DNA of 21,510 nucleotides, taken from NCBI GenBank assembly GCA_902803685.1, contig CADCQR010000074.1:1-21510 (forward strand), given 5' to 3'. The notes beneath the pieces were generated by a model. It ran no database searches. It saw only the letters and a program-made list of their open reading frames with translations, and had not been told where the DNA came from. The position numbers and the translations under genes were made by a program. Below are positions 1,641-5,904 of this stretch, piece after piece; the first letter of the stretch is position 1, and every line of letters starts with the position of its first letter. The DNA is from an uncultured Erysipelotrichaceae bacterium. Lineage in GTDB: Bacteria > Bacillota_I > Bacilli_A > RF39 > UBA660.

Positions 1641-1677
1641 TGTCAAATTTGACATAAGTTTAAAAAAATGATATAAT
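1641..1677 (+). promoter_or_regulatory. Consensus promoter overlapped by a 14-bp palindrome (putative operator)
   Basis: A perfect TTGACA (1649-1654) and a perfect TATAAT (1672-1677) are separated by 17 bp, with transcription predicted near 1684. A perfect palindrome, TGTCAAATTTGACA, occupies 1641-1654 and ends exactly at the last base of the -35 box. A dimeric repressor could therefore block RNA polymerase here. The promoter is seen directly; the operator role is inferred from position and symmetry. It drives the histidine leader and the 1895-4992 operon. Confidence 0.75.
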
Positions 1678-1702
1678 TTGCTCAGTTGGAGGAGAGATTA
1701 TT

Positions 1703-1771
1703 ATGTTTAAATTATTAACAAATAAATTTAATCATCATCATAATAGTCTGCACTTGTTAATACGACATTAG
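1703..1771 (+). CDS. Histidine-rich leader peptide (22 aa)
   Basis: A 22-codon reading frame starts 20 bp after the predicted transcription start. It has a strong GGAGGAG ribosome site ending 6-8 bp before the ATG. Five of 22 residues are histidine: three consecutive CAT codons at 1733-1741, CAC at 1751 and CAT at 1766 as the last sense codon before TAG. It lies just before alternative RNA hairpins and an intrinsic terminator, and the operon it leads contains a HisRS-like gene. This is the classical layout of an amino-acid attenuation leader, in which ribosome stalling at histidine codons senses uncharged tRNA-His. The frame, codon content and ribosome site are seen directly; the sensing role is inference. 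Confidence 0.75.
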   Translation: MFKLLTNKFNHHHNSLHLLIRH

Positions 1772-1868
1772 ATTTGTTGTAGGTACAAGTGCTATTTGTA
1801 GTGCTTGTACCTAGCATAATGCAAATAATCTCTATTATGCTACTGCAAGCACGCAGTGGCATTTTTTT
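1750..1868 (+). promoter_or_regulatory. Transcription attenuator with competing hairpins
   Basis: Four alternative pairings can be read off. A:B pairs 1750-1757 (inside the leader peptide's histidine codons) with 1785-1792, 8 bp perfect. B:C pairs 1781-1794 with 1799-1812, 14 bp with two G-U pairs and a 4-nt loop. D pairs 1812-1820 with 1834-1842, 9 bp, starting where B:C ends. The terminator pairs 1838-1846 with 1853-1861. A:B excludes B:C, and D excludes the terminator because they share 1838-1842. The C strand (1801-1809) can also pair over 9 bp with 1844-1852, which is the terminator's 5' arm and loop. Ribosome position on the leader peptide could choose among these folds. Which state gives readthrough is not settled by inspection. 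Confidence 0.7.
1838..1868 (+). terminator. Intrinsic terminator within the leader
   Basis: The stem TGCTACTGC (1838-1846) pairs with GCAGTGGCA (1853-1861): 9 bp with one G-U pair and a 6-nt loop, followed by seven T residues at 1862-1868. It lies between the leader peptide and the first structural gene, so it would end transcription before the operon unless prevented. Confidence 0.8.
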
Positions 1869-1894: not shown

Positions 1895-2689
1895 ATGAGA
1901 GATATTAGTAGTTGTTGGATGGATAAAGACATTCAATATAAATATATAATAGAAAAATTAAAAAGAACAAAAAATGATATTTTAGAATTTGGCGAAGCTT
2001 ATGCTGAAATATTTAATGGGGCGCCTTTTTATGAAAGCTGGGATATAAAAAGCGCTAGAAAAGTATTGTTGTCATATTTAGATGATGATGCACTTGTATT
2101 ATCTTCACGGTACAAAGAAAAAATAATCGGCTTTTTGGTAGCTGTTGGTAAAGTTCCAGAAGAACAACAAAAATTTGTTCAATGTTTGGAAAATATAAAG
2201 TTTATTGAGGAGATAGGCGTTTTAAGTGATTTTAGAGGCAAAATGATTGCAAGTGAAATGATTAGAGTGCTTTTATTAGAGTATTTAAATACTGATGATA
2301 GATATATAGGATATCGTACTAATGCTATGCGATACTTTGCTGTTAATGATTCAGAAAGTTTTGAGAGCGCTCTTGCTAGAGTTCAAAAAGAAGACAGAAT
2401 AAAAAGAATGAGTGGAGAATCAATCTATATTCCGGAATTTAGCTATGATGAGAAGCAAGCATTTATAAATAAGTATATTGAGGTAATTAAAAATAGACCT
2501 GAATTGGATGTTTCAAACTCTAATGCTTTATTTAGGAGTATTTTTGGTGACATTGATTATAGTACGATTGATGGCAACTATTCTTTTCAAACTGATCCAA
2601 CTGGTGATGGTAATGATCGGATATTCCCTGTAATTGATTTATCAAAAAAAATTATATTAACTAGGGGAGGCAATATTAGTGGAAACTAG
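1895..2689 (+). CDS. GNAT-family N-acetyltransferase
   Basis: A 264-residue cytosolic protein of the GNAT superfamily, which transfers an acyl group from acyl-CoA to an amine. The acetyl-CoA loop is visible at residues 109-120 (VLSDFRGKMIAS, a version of the RxxGxG/A motif), after the strand EEIG at 105-108. The N-terminal part carries a FNGAPFYESW stretch resembling the FNxxPW region of several GNATs. The C-terminal 120 residues, after about 145, are not diagnostic. It is the first gene of the operon behind the histidine attenuator, with AGGAG at 1884-1888. Its stop overlaps the next gene by 11 bp, so the two are probably translationally coupled. The acceptor substrate cannot be told from sequence; a histidine derivative is a guess from context only. 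Confidence 0.7.
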   Translation: MRDISSCWMDKDIQYKYIIEKLKRTKNDILEFGEAYAEIFNGAPFYESWDIKSARKVLLSYLDDDALVLSSRYKEKIIGFLVAVGKVPEEQQKFVQCLENIKFIEEIGVLSDFRGKMIASEMIRVLLLEYLNTDDRYIGYRTNAMRYFAVNDSESFESALARVQKEDRIKRMSGESIYIPEFSYDEKQAFINKYIEVIKNRPELDVSNSNALFRSIFGDIDYSTIDGNYSFQTDPTGDGNDRIFPVIDLSKKIILTRGGNISGN

Positions 2690-3719
2690 GCAGATATTAA
2701 GAGATTTAGTTAATTTCAATACAATCAATGATTATGATAATAAGAAAATTATTAATTATATTGAAAAATATTTAAATAATATTGGATTTATAACTGAATA
2801 TAAAAGTAAAAACCTTGTAATGAGTATTAATGATAATTGTCCTATTGGTTTTTTAGGCCATACGGATACTGTTTCTTATTCTGATGAATGGACAGTTAAG
2901 CCATTTTCTTTAAAAGAACGTGGTAATAAGTTATATGGCTTGGGTGTGTGTGATATGAAAGGATCTATTGCAACCATGCTTTCTGTTGTTGCCCAAATAG
3001 ATTGGAGTAAAAAATCAAAGGGTATTAAGTTGTTTTTTACATTTGATGAAGAGATTGGCTTTTCTGGTATAACTGAGTTAATTAAAAGTGAAATGAAATT
3101 TCCAAATTATATGATAATTGGTGAACCTACGAATAATGAAATAGTTAATGCTAGTAAAGGGTTGTTAGAATTAAAAGTCTCTTTTCGTGGAGTATCTTCG
3201 CACTCAAGTAAGCCAGAAGAGGGAGTTAATGCAATTGAAAATTGTATTGCCTTTATACAAAAAATGCAGAATTTATACGTTGAGTTAAAAAAAGAGGTTA
3301 TTGAGTCAAAGGCTATTACTATGAACATTGGTTTAATAAGCGGCGGTACTAGTATTAATATTGTACCGAATTACTGTGAGGTTTGTATTGATTTTAGAAC
3401 GATAACTAAGTATCAGAATGAATTTATAGTAAAACAAGTAGAAAGTATATTACAAGACTTTGATGCTAAGTTTGAAGTTATTAGTAATATAAGGCCATTT
3501 CAAAATAATGCTGAGAAAATTAATATGAGTGACTTTATTTCTGAAGCTAGTTTTATTGATTCTGAAAATAAATATATTTTAGGAGTTGGTCCAATAACGG
3601 CACATAAAGCAGATGAATTTATAACCATAAGTAGTCTAGAGAAGCTAGAAAAGCAATATCTAAATATGATAGAAGAAAAATTAAATGAGGTGGATATTTA
3701 TGAAGATACAAAATGTTAG
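2679..3719 (+). CDS. M20-family metallohydrolase, ArgE-like N-acyl amino acid deacylase or dipeptidase
   Basis: A 346-residue enzyme of the M20 family, which hydrolyses N-acyl amino acids or dipeptides with two metal ions. The expected residues are present: GHTDT with His61 and Asp63, CDMKG with bridging Asp92, DEE with Glu124 (base) and Glu125, GEPT with Glu149, the lid-domain SSHSS with His175, and a C-terminal TAHKADE supplying the last histidine. The GLGVCDMKGS and GEPT contexts resemble acetylornithine deacetylase (ArgE) more than carboxypeptidase G2. The start is GTG at 2679 with AGGGGAGG at 2663-2670. It overlaps the acetyltransferase gene upstream and the HisRS-like gene downstream by 20 bp. 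No arginine-biosynthesis neighbours are present, so an ArgE role in arginine synthesis is unlikely. A plausible substrate is an N-acyl-histidine or a His-containing dipeptide, which is inference. Confidence 0.8.
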   Translation: METRQILRDLVNFNTINDYDNKKIINYIEKYLNNIGFITEYKSKNLVMSINDNCPIGFLGHTDTVSYSDEWTVKPFSLKERGNKLYGLGVCDMKGSIATMLSVVAQIDWSKKSKGIKLFFTFDEEIGFSGITELIKSEMKFPNYMIIGEPTNNEIVNASKGLLELKVSFRGVSSHSSKPEEGVNAIENCIAFIQKMQNLYVELKKEVIESKAITMNIGLISGGTSINIVPNYCEVCIDFRTITKYQNEFIVKQVESILQDFDAKFEVISNIRPFQNNAEKINMSDFISEASFIDSENKYILGVGPITAHKADEFITISSLEKLEKQYLNMIEEKLNEVDIYEDTKC

Positions 3720-4992
3720 AGGGGGATTTGACTTTTTGCCGAAAGAACAAAGAGTAAGAAATTATATACGTAATGTTTTAATAAAAGTCTTTGAAGAATA
3801 CGGCTTTAAATCTATAGAAACACCTATATTGTGTTATTATGATATGTTAAGTGATAAATATGATGAAAATAATGACATTTTGAAAGAAATATATAGGTTA
3901 AAAGATCAAGGAAATCGAGATTTGGGGTTGAGATATGATTTGACTGTTCCTTTTGCCAAGTTTATTGCTTTAAATAAAAATAAAATATCTTTTCCCTTTA
4001 GAAGATATGAGATTAATAAGGTCTTTAGAGATGGACCGGTTAGGGTAGGGAGAGATAGAGAGTTTACTCAATGTGATGCAGATGTTGTCGGTATTAATGG
4101 TCAATATGTAGAAGCTGAATTATTGTCTTTGTACGTTAGAGCATTTAGTAAGCTTAATATTGATATAGTTATAAAATATAATAATAGAAATTTAATGAGT
4201 GGTTTAATTATGGAAAGTGGTGTTCCAGAGAATCTAGTATCTAATGTTACTACAATACTTGATAAAAAAGATAAAATGACCAATAAAGAGATTGATGCTC
4301 TATTATTTGAAATCGGGTTAAATGATTATCAAATTGATAATATAAATAATTATTTTTATATGAGTCTGGGTGAGTTGACTGAAAAATTTAAAGATTCAAA
4401 TAACGATAAGATTAAAGTAGGATTATGTGAAGTTAATCAATTAGTTAGTTATTTATCTGATATAGGTATTAATAATTATTGCGAATTCACCATATCGCTT
4501 GCTAGAGGACAGAATTATTATACTGGTAATGTTTTTGAGGTTTACGAAAAAAACGGTTTGATTAAGGGAAGTATCGGTGGTGGTGGTAGATATGATAAAA
4601 TAGTTGGCGATTTTATAGGCGATGGTAATGTATATCCAACTGTTGGAATTAGTTTTGGTTTATCTTCCATTTATGAGTTATTAAAAGATTCAAAAATATT
4701 TGCTGATAAGTCAGAGATAGATTTCTTTATAATTCCGTTAGATACTGAGTCAGAATCTTTGCAGCTTGCTAATAATATTAGAAATATGGGATATAATGTG
4801 GAAATAGATATGACGAAAAACAAAGTAAGAAAAAGTATGGAATACGCAAATAGAGAAAAAATTCCGTTTGTTATTGTATTAGGAAAAAAGGAAATTGATG
4901 AACAAAAATTTGATATAAAGAATATGTTGACCAGCGAAAAAATATCCATTTATTTTACTTCTTTAGGTAAAATAAAAGATTTAATCAATTGA
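3700..4992 (+). CDS. Histidyl-tRNA synthetase paralogue of the eukaryote-like type, altered motifs
   Basis: A 430-residue class II synthetase-like protein with a complete catalytic core and a C-terminal anticodon-binding-like domain (about 338-430). LRYDLTVPFAKF at 77-88 and RRYEINKVFRDGP with GRDREFTQCDAD at 101-128 (motif 2) match the eukaryote/archaeal-like HisRS form rather than the E. coli form. The histidine-A motif, normally RGLDYYTG, reads RGQNYYTG at 269-276, keeping the catalytic arginine but losing Leu-Asp. Motif 3 reads GISFGLSSIYELL at 316-328. The usual Glu-Arg pair is Ser-Ser, so the conserved motif 3 arginine that contacts ATP is absent. ATG 3700 is preferred over 3685 because GAGGTGG sits 7 bp before it. 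It ends with TGA. It could be a second HisRS, a regulatory paralogue like HisZ, or an amide-forming enzyme. Confidence 0.8.
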   Translation: MKIQNVRGGFDFLPKEQRVRNYIRNVLIKVFEEYGFKSIETPILCYYDMLSDKYDENNDILKEIYRLKDQGNRDLGLRYDLTVPFAKFIALNKNKISFPFRRYEINKVFRDGPVRVGRDREFTQCDADVVGINGQYVEAELLSLYVRAFSKLNIDIVIKYNNRNLMSGLIMESGVPENLVSNVTTILDKKDKMTNKEIDALLFEIGLNDYQIDNINNYFYMSLGELTEKFKDSNNDKIKVGLCEVNQLVSYLSDIGINNYCEFTISLARGQNYYTGNVFEVYEKNGLIKGSIGGGGRYDKIVGDFIGDGNVYPTVGISFGLSSIYELLKDSKIFADKSEIDFFIIPLDTESESLQLANNIRNMGYNVEIDMTKNKVRKSMEYANREKIPFVIVLGKKEIDEQKFDIKNMLTSEKISIYFTSLGKIKDLIN

Positions 4993-5064: not shown

Positions 5065-5520
5065 ATGTATATTGATATTAAAAGTATTACTAAATATATT
5101 TTGATTCCCCTAATTTTGGGGGCGCTAGCTGGTTTTTTGTCTGGAAGCTTTGGCGGTTATAAAGATATGGTAATGCCAAGTTTTGCGCCTCCTGGTATTT
5201 TATTTCCTATTGTTTGGAGTATATTGTATATATTAATGGGAGTATCAAGATATATCATTTCTCAAAAGGATAATAATAGCAGCGCCGTTAGTATATATAG
5301 ATTTCAATTAGGTGTTAATTTATTATGGAGTTTTTTCTTTTTTACTTTTAGATGGTATTTGTTTTCATTCTTGTGGATTATTTTATTAATAATTTTAGTA
5401 TTAATAATGATTAAAAATTTTTATAACCTTTCAAAGGTTGCTTCTTTTTTACAAATACCATATTTGGTTTGGATTGTTTTTGCATCTATACTTAATTTTT
5501 CCATATATTATTTAAATTAG
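5065..5520 (+). CDS. TspO/MBR family membrane protein
   Basis: A 151-residue integral membrane protein with five hydrophobic segments. The family signature is clear: SFAPPGILFPIVWSILYILM at about residues 37-56 matches the tryptophan-rich sensory protein (TspO/MBR) PPGxxFPxVWxxLYxLMG motif. The N-terminus also has the GxLxGFLSG pattern. Family members bind porphyrins and cholesterol-like ligands and are linked to stress responses or tetrapyrrole breakdown; the role here is unknown. The ribosome site is TTAGGTGATT, about 8 bp before ATG. It lies 72 bp after the HisRS-like gene with no clear terminator between them, so it may be read with that operon. A good terminator follows at 5598. Confidence 0.85.
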   Translation: MYIDIKSITKYILIPLILGALAGFLSGSFGGYKDMVMPSFAPPGILFPIVWSILYILMGVSRYIISQKDNNSSAVSIYRFQLGVNLLWSFFFFTFRWYLFSFLWIILLIILVLIMIKNFYNLSKVASFLQIPYLVWIVFASILNFSIYYLN

Positions 5521-5643: not shown

Positions 5644-5904
5644 TTATGCTATTATTGTAGTATAAAAATTTGTGTACTTGATTTTTAAATCAATTTCCTT
5701 AATTTGTAATTCATTGAGAGATTTTGGATCGGCTCTCTCAATGAAATCTTTAAACTGGCCTTTGAGTGTTTCTATCCAATGATTGTGTGTATATGTATAA
5801 GGTGCTGACATGCTTGGCGTTAGATTCACCTCAGCGGTTTTTGTTTCGTATATTCCGCTCTTATACATTCCTCCTCTATCTGAATGTAATATCATATTAT
5901 TCAA
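5644..5904 (-). pseudogene. IS3-family OrfB transposase, C-terminal remnant
   Basis: About 86 residues of the IS3 OrfB (rve integrase) catalytic core survive. The N-terminal LHSDRGGMYKSG segment is the family LHSDQGxQY motif carrying the second catalytic Asp. THNHWIETLKGQFKDF corresponds to the NxxxExFxxxLKxE region with the last catalytic Glu. The end reads out of frame: shifting one base near 5650 gives a YYNN run, matching the family's YYNxxR ending. It has no first catalytic Asp and no OrfA, so it is inactive. It belongs with the OrfA start at 6245-6316 as two ends of one decayed element. Confidence 0.75.

Follow-up and report, generated by a model that had tools for sequence, protein, structure and literature searches.

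The Escherichia coli his leader (hisL, RF00514) has six segments and, like the leaders described here, combines a short open reading frame (ORF) carrying a run of His codons with a chain of competing helices and an intrinsic terminator, located ahead of His-related genes. For an auxiliary TrpRS of Streptomyces coelicolor, work by Vecchione and Sello from 2010 reportedly found ribosome-mediated attenuation, the auxiliary enzyme giving antibiotic resistance; this resembles the present case as an aminoacyl-tRNA synthetase under leader-peptide attenuation, but concerns Trp and an actinobacterium. In the classical model, as outlined in PMC1183508, lack of leader translation leads to helices I:II and III:IV and thus to super-attenuation. 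In Firmicutes, His leader-peptide attenuators have been predicted for hisZ and hisS* of bacilli (PMC2965389, 2010), and his attenuators for the B. cereus group, Peptostreptococcaceae/Lutispora, and six Erysipelotrichales (PMC9413887, 2022), the latter paper stating that RF00514 finds nothing in Firmicutes. These share with the present leaders a His-rich peptide, a terminator/antiterminator arrangement, and low-GC Gram-positive hosts; the PMC9413887 attenuators, however, are described as preceding his biosynthetic operons, unlike the present family. The Staphylococcus aureus ilv-leu attenuator, for which PMC5794164 gives promoter-activity and mutant evidence, is likewise a case of amino-acid leader-peptide attenuation in a Firmicute, but it responds to leucine, controls a biosynthetic operon, and has a different predicted antiterminator. 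T-boxes also sense uncharged tRNA, whereas the leader described here would do so via a translating ribosome.

The window, by which we mean the whole 21,510-nucleotide stretch of DNA analyzed, contains a leader (Table 1) that is probably a ribosome-mediated transcription attenuator sensing charged tRNA-His and controlling a GNAT-M20-HisRS operon via segments A-B-C-E-F, with histidine starvation as the ON state. A preliminary description of this DNA had reported a His-rich 22-codon leader peptide (1703-1771) followed by competing helices and an intrinsic terminator. The ORF is present as reported, its five His codons comprising three consecutive CAT codons (1733-1741, the proposed sensing run) and two others at 1751-1753 and 1766-1768, and the leader RNA folds with z = -6.35, 0/200 shuffles being equally stable. 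The first helix does use bases of the leader ORF: 1750-1757/1785-1792 (A:B) is present in the minimum-energy fold, and on removal of the bases up to 1757 a 15-bp helix, 1780-1794/1799-1813 (B:C), appears in the centroid instead. Strand C can also pair with the 5' arm and loop of the terminator (C:E), the window duplex having 15 pairs and a stability of -18.9 kcal/mol. Apart from the hairpin 1837-1846/1853-1862, no terminator-like site was detected in 1500-2000 (shuffle mean 0.1). A scan of the window with Rfam covariance models returned no family at its gathering score, T-box (RF00230) and RF00514 included, in keeping with the earlier statement that no T-box motif is visible at the site.

Table 1. 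Features of the leader and of the operon that follows it (window positions)
Feature	Position	Strand	Basis or detail
Sigma-70 type promoter, TTGACA-17-TATAAT	1649..1677	+	Consensus positions matched 12/12
Shine-Dalgarno of leader ORF, GGAGGAGAG	1688..1696	+	Strong; GGAGG at 1688-1692; from sequence
Leader ORF, MFKLLTNKFNHHHNSLHLLIRH	1703..1771	+	ATG 1703, TAG 1769-1771, 22 codons, 5 His
Strand A	1750..1766	+	1750-1757 with B 1785-1792; inner core 1762-1766 with 1776-1780
Strand B, common to A:B and B:C	1780..1794	+	Folds; B:C permutation test
Strand C with tail	1799..1817	+	1799-1813 with B, or 1801-1809 and 1812-1817 with E 1837-1852
Strand E	1837..1852	+	Terminator 5' arm 1837-1846, loop 1847-1852
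Strand F (1853-1862) and T-tract, intrinsic terminator	1853..1868	+	1837-1846/1853-1862 hairpin, then T's
GNAT-fold N-acetyltransferase, first operon gene	1895..2689	+	AlphaFold2 pLDDT 88.1, GNAT fold matches in PDB
M20 family peptidase/deacylase (ArgE/DapE-like)	2679..3719	+	PF01546, PF07687
Histidyl-tRNA synthetase, HisRS-2 type	3700..4992	+	TIGR00442, 338.9 bits (cut-off 286.75)

Related leaders were collected by three routes. A genome scan with an acetyltransferase alignment gave nine loci (protein identity 47-64%), and in 9/9 of them the GNAT gene is adjoined by an ORF that carries a His run and hardly varies at its 3' end. A search with the leader motif covered the 385 genomes of the order to which one of these loci belongs and gave zero-mismatch matches in at least 13, 12 of them with a true leader: four were already among the known loci, and the other nine comprised eight full leaders and one chance match. 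Matches with up to two mismatches occur in 156/385 genomes, many of them probably by chance, since a reversed-pattern control also often matches. The acetyltransferase itself occurs in so few of these genomes (4/385 at E < 1e-70, 8/385 at E up to 0.001) that the leader must also travel with other genes. A covariance model, R1, built on 18 leaders, contributed ten further leaders; R1 matches were found in 3/395 genomes of the class, and in 11/145, 8/117, 11/145, and 11/145 genomes of four largely overlapping family samples. The resulting 29 candidates (the window, nine via the acetyltransferase, nine via the motif, ten via model searches) yielded 27 leaders used throughout. L054, a chance motif match within a gene, was left out, as was L079, which has lost the region from C to E; in the genome of the latter (G372) the hisS-2 start is fused, as judged by eye, to an IS30-type transposase-like ORF, and L079 looks like a decaying, rearranged, or misassembled copy. 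By their record titles, from which lineage was taken, the leader-bearing sequences belong to uncultured Bacilli, Erysipelotrichaceae, and Tenericutes, and in one case Clostridia; a viral sequence collection gave no exact motif match. One contig (C79 of G004) carries two different His leaders on opposite strands, one for GNAT-M20 and the other for hisS-2 (L004, L085).

The anatomy of the leader is conserved and supports the coupling to a His peptide proposed in the preliminary description. Strand A is preceded by 2-4 His codons in 27/27 leaders, as compared with seven consecutive His codons in E. coli hisL. Because the parser demanded the A, B, and C core motifs together with a Shine-Dalgarno-like motif, an ATG, and a pair of His codons, the universal presence of these features is partly built in. 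The in-frame stop varies (TAA 24, TGA 2, TAG 1), as do the N-terminal residues of the peptide, which we presume to be translated. A promoter-like site with at most three mismatches lies in the 80 nt 5' of the leader ORF in 26/27 cases versus 971/2700 mononucleotide-shuffled controls, and the terminator hairpin is followed by at least four T's in 26/27. The exception in the latter respect is L003 (L003:4735-5137), which lies 3' of a stretch that looks tRNA-like by eye and has a poor promoter (four mismatches) and a terminator lacking a U-tract; this leader is perhaps non-functional or co-transcribed. The end of the leader ORF, ATACGACATTR (window 1760-1770; at the same place in 22/27), is conserved beyond pairing needs, making a pausing or peptide role possible. 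In the window, the stretch AGAGATTATT at 1693-1702, over the Shine-Dalgarno region of the leader, is perfectly complementary to the pre-terminator spacer at 1824-1833, in a region that is also paired at minimum energy; such pairing might shut off leader translation on completed transcripts.

The preliminary description suggested looking for covarying stems. In a column alignment of 18 leaders, 94.4% of A:B cells hold standard pairs, no two-sided changes occur in A:B, and the two pairs with such changes in B:C do not exceed shuffles; the core is too conserved for column-wise covariation to be informative, and it was therefore replaced by a permutation test in which helix partners were swapped between the 27 loci (2000 permutations). 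Here the four helices are supported. Swapped partners were as good as the true ones in 14 permutations for A:B and in none for B:C, C:E, or E:F, compared with 603 for A:E, 1937 for B:E, 1601 for C:F, and 1801 for A:F. A non-redundant set of 17 leaders gave the same picture (22, 0, 0, and 0 versus 706, 1869, 1740, and 920, in the same order). Pairing in A:B, B:C, C:E, and E:F is locus-specific, and this specificity is absent from the four control combinations. The result for C:E supports the earlier suggestion that strand C, pairing with the terminator loop, acts as an alternative antiterminator. Across the 27 leaders C:E has 7-17 pairs and -9.3 to -19.8 kcal/mol; it is more stable than dinucleotide shuffles of E (p < 0.05) in 17/27, and a leader's own E beats the mean foreign E in 20/27 (not in L003, L005, L006, L070, L073, L080, and L082). 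C:E is weak in L070 and L080 (-9.3 and -9.4 kcal/mol; shuffle p 0.21 and 0.58), and in L080 a reversed C pairs better with E (-11.3 kcal/mol). Counts of changes within best-duplex C:E pairs were not taken as evidence, because picking the best duplex of each locus biases them.

The position of the His codons relative to strand A suggests how these helices could be used. A ribosome with its A site on a codon protects mRNA to about +13. Because A lies 14-20 nt beyond the first His codon in 27/27 leaders, it would stay free when a ribosome stalls at that codon; the last His of the run lies 11 nt before A in 24/27. The sign of the response, which the preliminary description left open, can accordingly be proposed: a stall upstream of A would give A:B and C:E, and hence ON. 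When histidyl-tRNA is scarce, the leading ribosome would stall on the His run and A:B would form ahead of it; C, being unpaired, would then zip onto the emerging 5' arm and loop of the terminator, preventing the terminator and allowing transcription of the operon. When histidyl-tRNA is plentiful, the ribosome would reach the stop codon and unwind or cover A, B:C would pair, E would be left for F, and transcription would end (OFF).

We mimicked the ribosome by cutting the RNA 13 nt after the A-site codon and took medians over the 27 leaders. In transcripts ending before F, a stall at the first His gives 11.9 A:B and 13.0 C:E pairs; these values drop to 9.1 and 12.4 when the stall is moved to the last His. 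A full-length transcript whose ribosome has reached the stop codon has 11.0 B:C and 11.2 E:F pairs. C:E is also favored in the fed state before F (11.9 pairs), being more than one pair higher in the starved than in the fed state in 12/27 leaders and lower in one, while full-length folds favor the terminator even under starvation (E:F 9.2, C:E 1.4 pairs), E:F being lower starved than fed in 10/27. When the transcript ends at C, more A:B than B:C pairs are predicted in 16/27 leaders without a ribosome, in 9/27 with a first-His stall, and in 0/27 with a last-His stall. Full-length equilibrium folds do not separate the two states; since thermodynamics alone shows no switch, the model needs co-transcriptional order and kinetic trapping.

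The main competing explanation is an even-parity attenuator of the E. coli his type, in which A is covered by the stalled ribosome, B pairs with C, and the antiterminator is D:E (about 1814-1820 with 1835-1841), the fed state being A:B, C:D, and E:F. Folded as a whole, the window leader does adopt A:B, a C':D hairpin, and E:F at minimum energy, the window can form a D:E hairpin of -6.8 kcal/mol, and a last-His stall on transcripts ending at C yields B:C over A:B in 27/27 leaders. The pairing of C' with the downstream spacer is also weakly locus-specific (4/2000 permutations as good; 109/2000 in the non-redundant set). Nonetheless, we consider this scheme unlikely: A begins beyond the usual reach of a ribosome stalled at the first His codon in every leader, the locus-specific C:E pairing would be left without a role, and D:E is not locus-specific, with 1534/2000 permutations as good as the true partners. 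Moreover, only 8/27 leaders, including the window, reach -4 kcal/mol when the stretch after C, where D:E lies, is folded; D:E was therefore rejected as a general antiterminator. The earlier proposal that D (1812-1842) blocks the terminator under starvation is thus not upheld as a general mechanism. D is no separate conserved element, its 5' part (1812-1817) belonging as a tail to the long C:E antiterminator; what is conserved as antiterminator is strand C paired with the 5' arm and loop of the terminator.

Two further explanations place the sensing elsewhere. A nascent peptide with the C-terminal sequence LLIRH might arrest the ribosome as TnaC does, in response to a small molecule or to His, with codon starvation secondary. 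LLIRH and the following stop are kept in 22/27 leaders, a conservation above pairing needs, but LLIRH is missing from five leaders in which the His run and the strand A RNA are intact: L075 ends in LLIRL and L081 in LYNRH, the L082 ORF stops inside A (LHL), and in L080 (HHHSNRTC) and L085 (HHHHNNRTCK) the frame through strand A is shifted, giving NRTC and RTCK. L006-L009, moreover, carry Arg instead of His before LLIRH through an A-to-G substitution, after which the A:B pair persists as G-U in 2/4 and is lost in 2/4. Peptide arrest as the primary signal therefore seems very unlikely. Hardly credible, in our view, is an element working independently of ribosomes (a riboswitch or protein-bound attenuator) that overlaps a His-rich ORF by chance: the primary sequence of the A loop is strongly conserved, but a His run, Shine-Dalgarno motif, start, and in-frame stop accompany it in 27/27 leaders (partly a parsing condition), the peptide varies at its N terminus and ends at any of three stop codons, the downstream genes are mostly His-related, and no Rfam family matches.

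Within the preferred reading, a His-sensing ribosome acting through A-B-C-E-F, the computed folds without a ribosome set these leaders apart from E. coli hisL. In transcripts ending before F, the terminator arm of hisL has 2.3 upstream pairs, whereas the present leaders have medians of 12.9 C:E and 11.9 A:B pairs; at full length both give the terminator (E:F 11.4 and C:E 0.1 pairs here). The method meets similar limits with hisL, which has 11.8 upstream pairs before F in the fed state and 0 at full length in any state. Because A:B and C:E are the helices predicted before F without a ribosome, with the hisL terminator arm almost free in the same calculation, the family looks like an odd-parity, default-ON design. 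On balance, we lean towards regarding it as a five-segment attenuator in which completion of the peptide represses and de-repression follows whenever strand A stays clear of ribosomes, and as a sequence-conserved RNA family of T-box-rich, apparently histidine-auxotrophic uncultured Bacilli, at least five genomes of which combine a T-box HisRS gene with a distinct leader-controlled one. Loss of leader translation would then be expected to cause read-through. If this polarity holds, shifting the sensing codons to a place before the first helix and using an odd number of segments would be enough to give ribosome-coupled attenuation a default opposite to that of trp and his. As far as our literature search shows, the RNA family is new in these uncultured Bacilli, as are the genes it controls and the inverted geometry: apart from the two Firmicutes papers (PMC2965389, PMC9413887), no description of this leader or of a His attenuator with inverted parity was recognized among the titles and abstract beginnings listed, in a search that covered few subscription journals and is not proof of absence.

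The genes under the leader differ from the his biosynthetic operon controlled by hisL. GNAT-M20 follows the leader in the window, L001, L002, and L004-L009, and is itself followed by HisRS-2 in the window and L002; the L003 sequence ends after the GNAT gene. HisRS-2 is the first gene in L052, L053, L071, L073, L075, L080, and L085, and M20 in L057 and L058, the latter also with a different small GNAT and HisRS-2. hisG (PF01634) lies under L055 (1648-2226) and L056 (4278-4970) in genomes G098 and G106. In L051, L059, L078, and L082 the first gene encodes a long protein without a Pfam match (494 aa in L059). The next gene is an S66 peptidase in L059 and, on visual inspection, in L051, whereas the L078 and L082 sequences end too soon to show it. 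The first ORFs under L070 and L081 find no explanation among the leader-controlled gene types. With HisRS-2 or hisG in many operons, the controlled genes belong to His metabolism or charging; for GNAT and M20 alone this is less clear.

In the window operon, the GNAT gene gave no Pfam match at 0.001, has the precomputed label PF20224, and has relatives carrying PF00583; a fold search returned the general GNAT fold without pointing to a substrate. Judged by curated cut-offs, the M20 protein scores too low for all 25 NCBIfam families listed. HisRS-2 also matches PRK12420 with 470.4 bits, under the cut-off of 540, and its best solved relatives are 6nhi (1e-72) and the cytoplasmic HisRS 4g84 (2e-56), which we take to be the human enzyme, the bacterial 1kmm, presumably E. 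coli HisRS, being far weaker (2e-21). A defense-system library gave matches for 0/3 of the operon proteins. The L059 S66 protein is close to MccF-like structures (4h1h, 7e-72; MccF 3sr3, 3e-40). Because MccF-like S66 proteins and a GNAT sit under the same switch, some leader operons might, more speculatively and by analogy, provide inducible protection against HisRS-blocking compounds; MccE is a GNAT with which the GNAT under the leader can be compared.

The host set comprised 25 leader genomes, i.e. 24 with a kept leader and G372. hisD was found in 0/25 of them versus 13/14 control genomes, and on this comparison the leader genomes are probably histidine auxotrophs. HisG exceeded its cut-off in 2/25 genomes, corresponding exactly to the two leader-controlled orphans, a third match being below cut-off; in G098 and G106 hisG, encoding ATP phosphoribosyltransferase, is thus an orphan found without hisD and apparently lacks a pathway to feed. 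HisRS-2 with 54-70% identity to that of the window occurs, at full length or at a contig edge, in 10/25 genomes, and a distant HisRS-1 (25-37% identity) in 21/25; six of the ten HisRS-2 genomes have both (G002, G041, G281, G331, G732, and G759), and HisRS-1 was not found in the other four (G004, G189, G214, and G231). T-box (RF00230) matches number 6-15 per genome in all 20 leader genomes searched, 19/20 having one over cut-off. By coordinate comparison, a T-box lies directly 5' of hisS-1 in at least 10/20 (G001, G002, G007, G008, G009, G041, G195, G281, G331, and G759), and in at least five genomes (G002, G041, G281, G331, and G759) such a hisS-1 coexists with a leader-controlled HisRS-2. This recalls the division of labor in Bacillus, where, according to the published account, hisS has a T-box and its paralogue hisS* a His leader. 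The contrast drawn in the preliminary description between Firmicutes with T-boxes and Proteobacteria with peptide leaders is weaker than stated, His leaders having been predicted in Firmicutes before (PMC2965389, PMC9413887). If the polarity holds, the five or more genomes are a natural experiment in which uncharged tRNA-His is sensed in two different ways, one for each HisRS gene. In bacteria known so far only from metagenomes, the RNA family can moreover be searched for as a specific marker of genes that respond to histidine, unknown proteins included.

HisRS-2 remnants occur in G309 and G372; in the former, a hisS-2 remnant with stop codons lies near the genes controlled by L051 (G309:C6:33646-34048), the leader of which is intact. 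In the window, a TspO/MBR family gene (5065-5520) lies directly 3' of the operon, and short ORFs at 62-322 and 5644-5904, both on the minus strand, flank the operon region and have by eye the look of transposase remnants.
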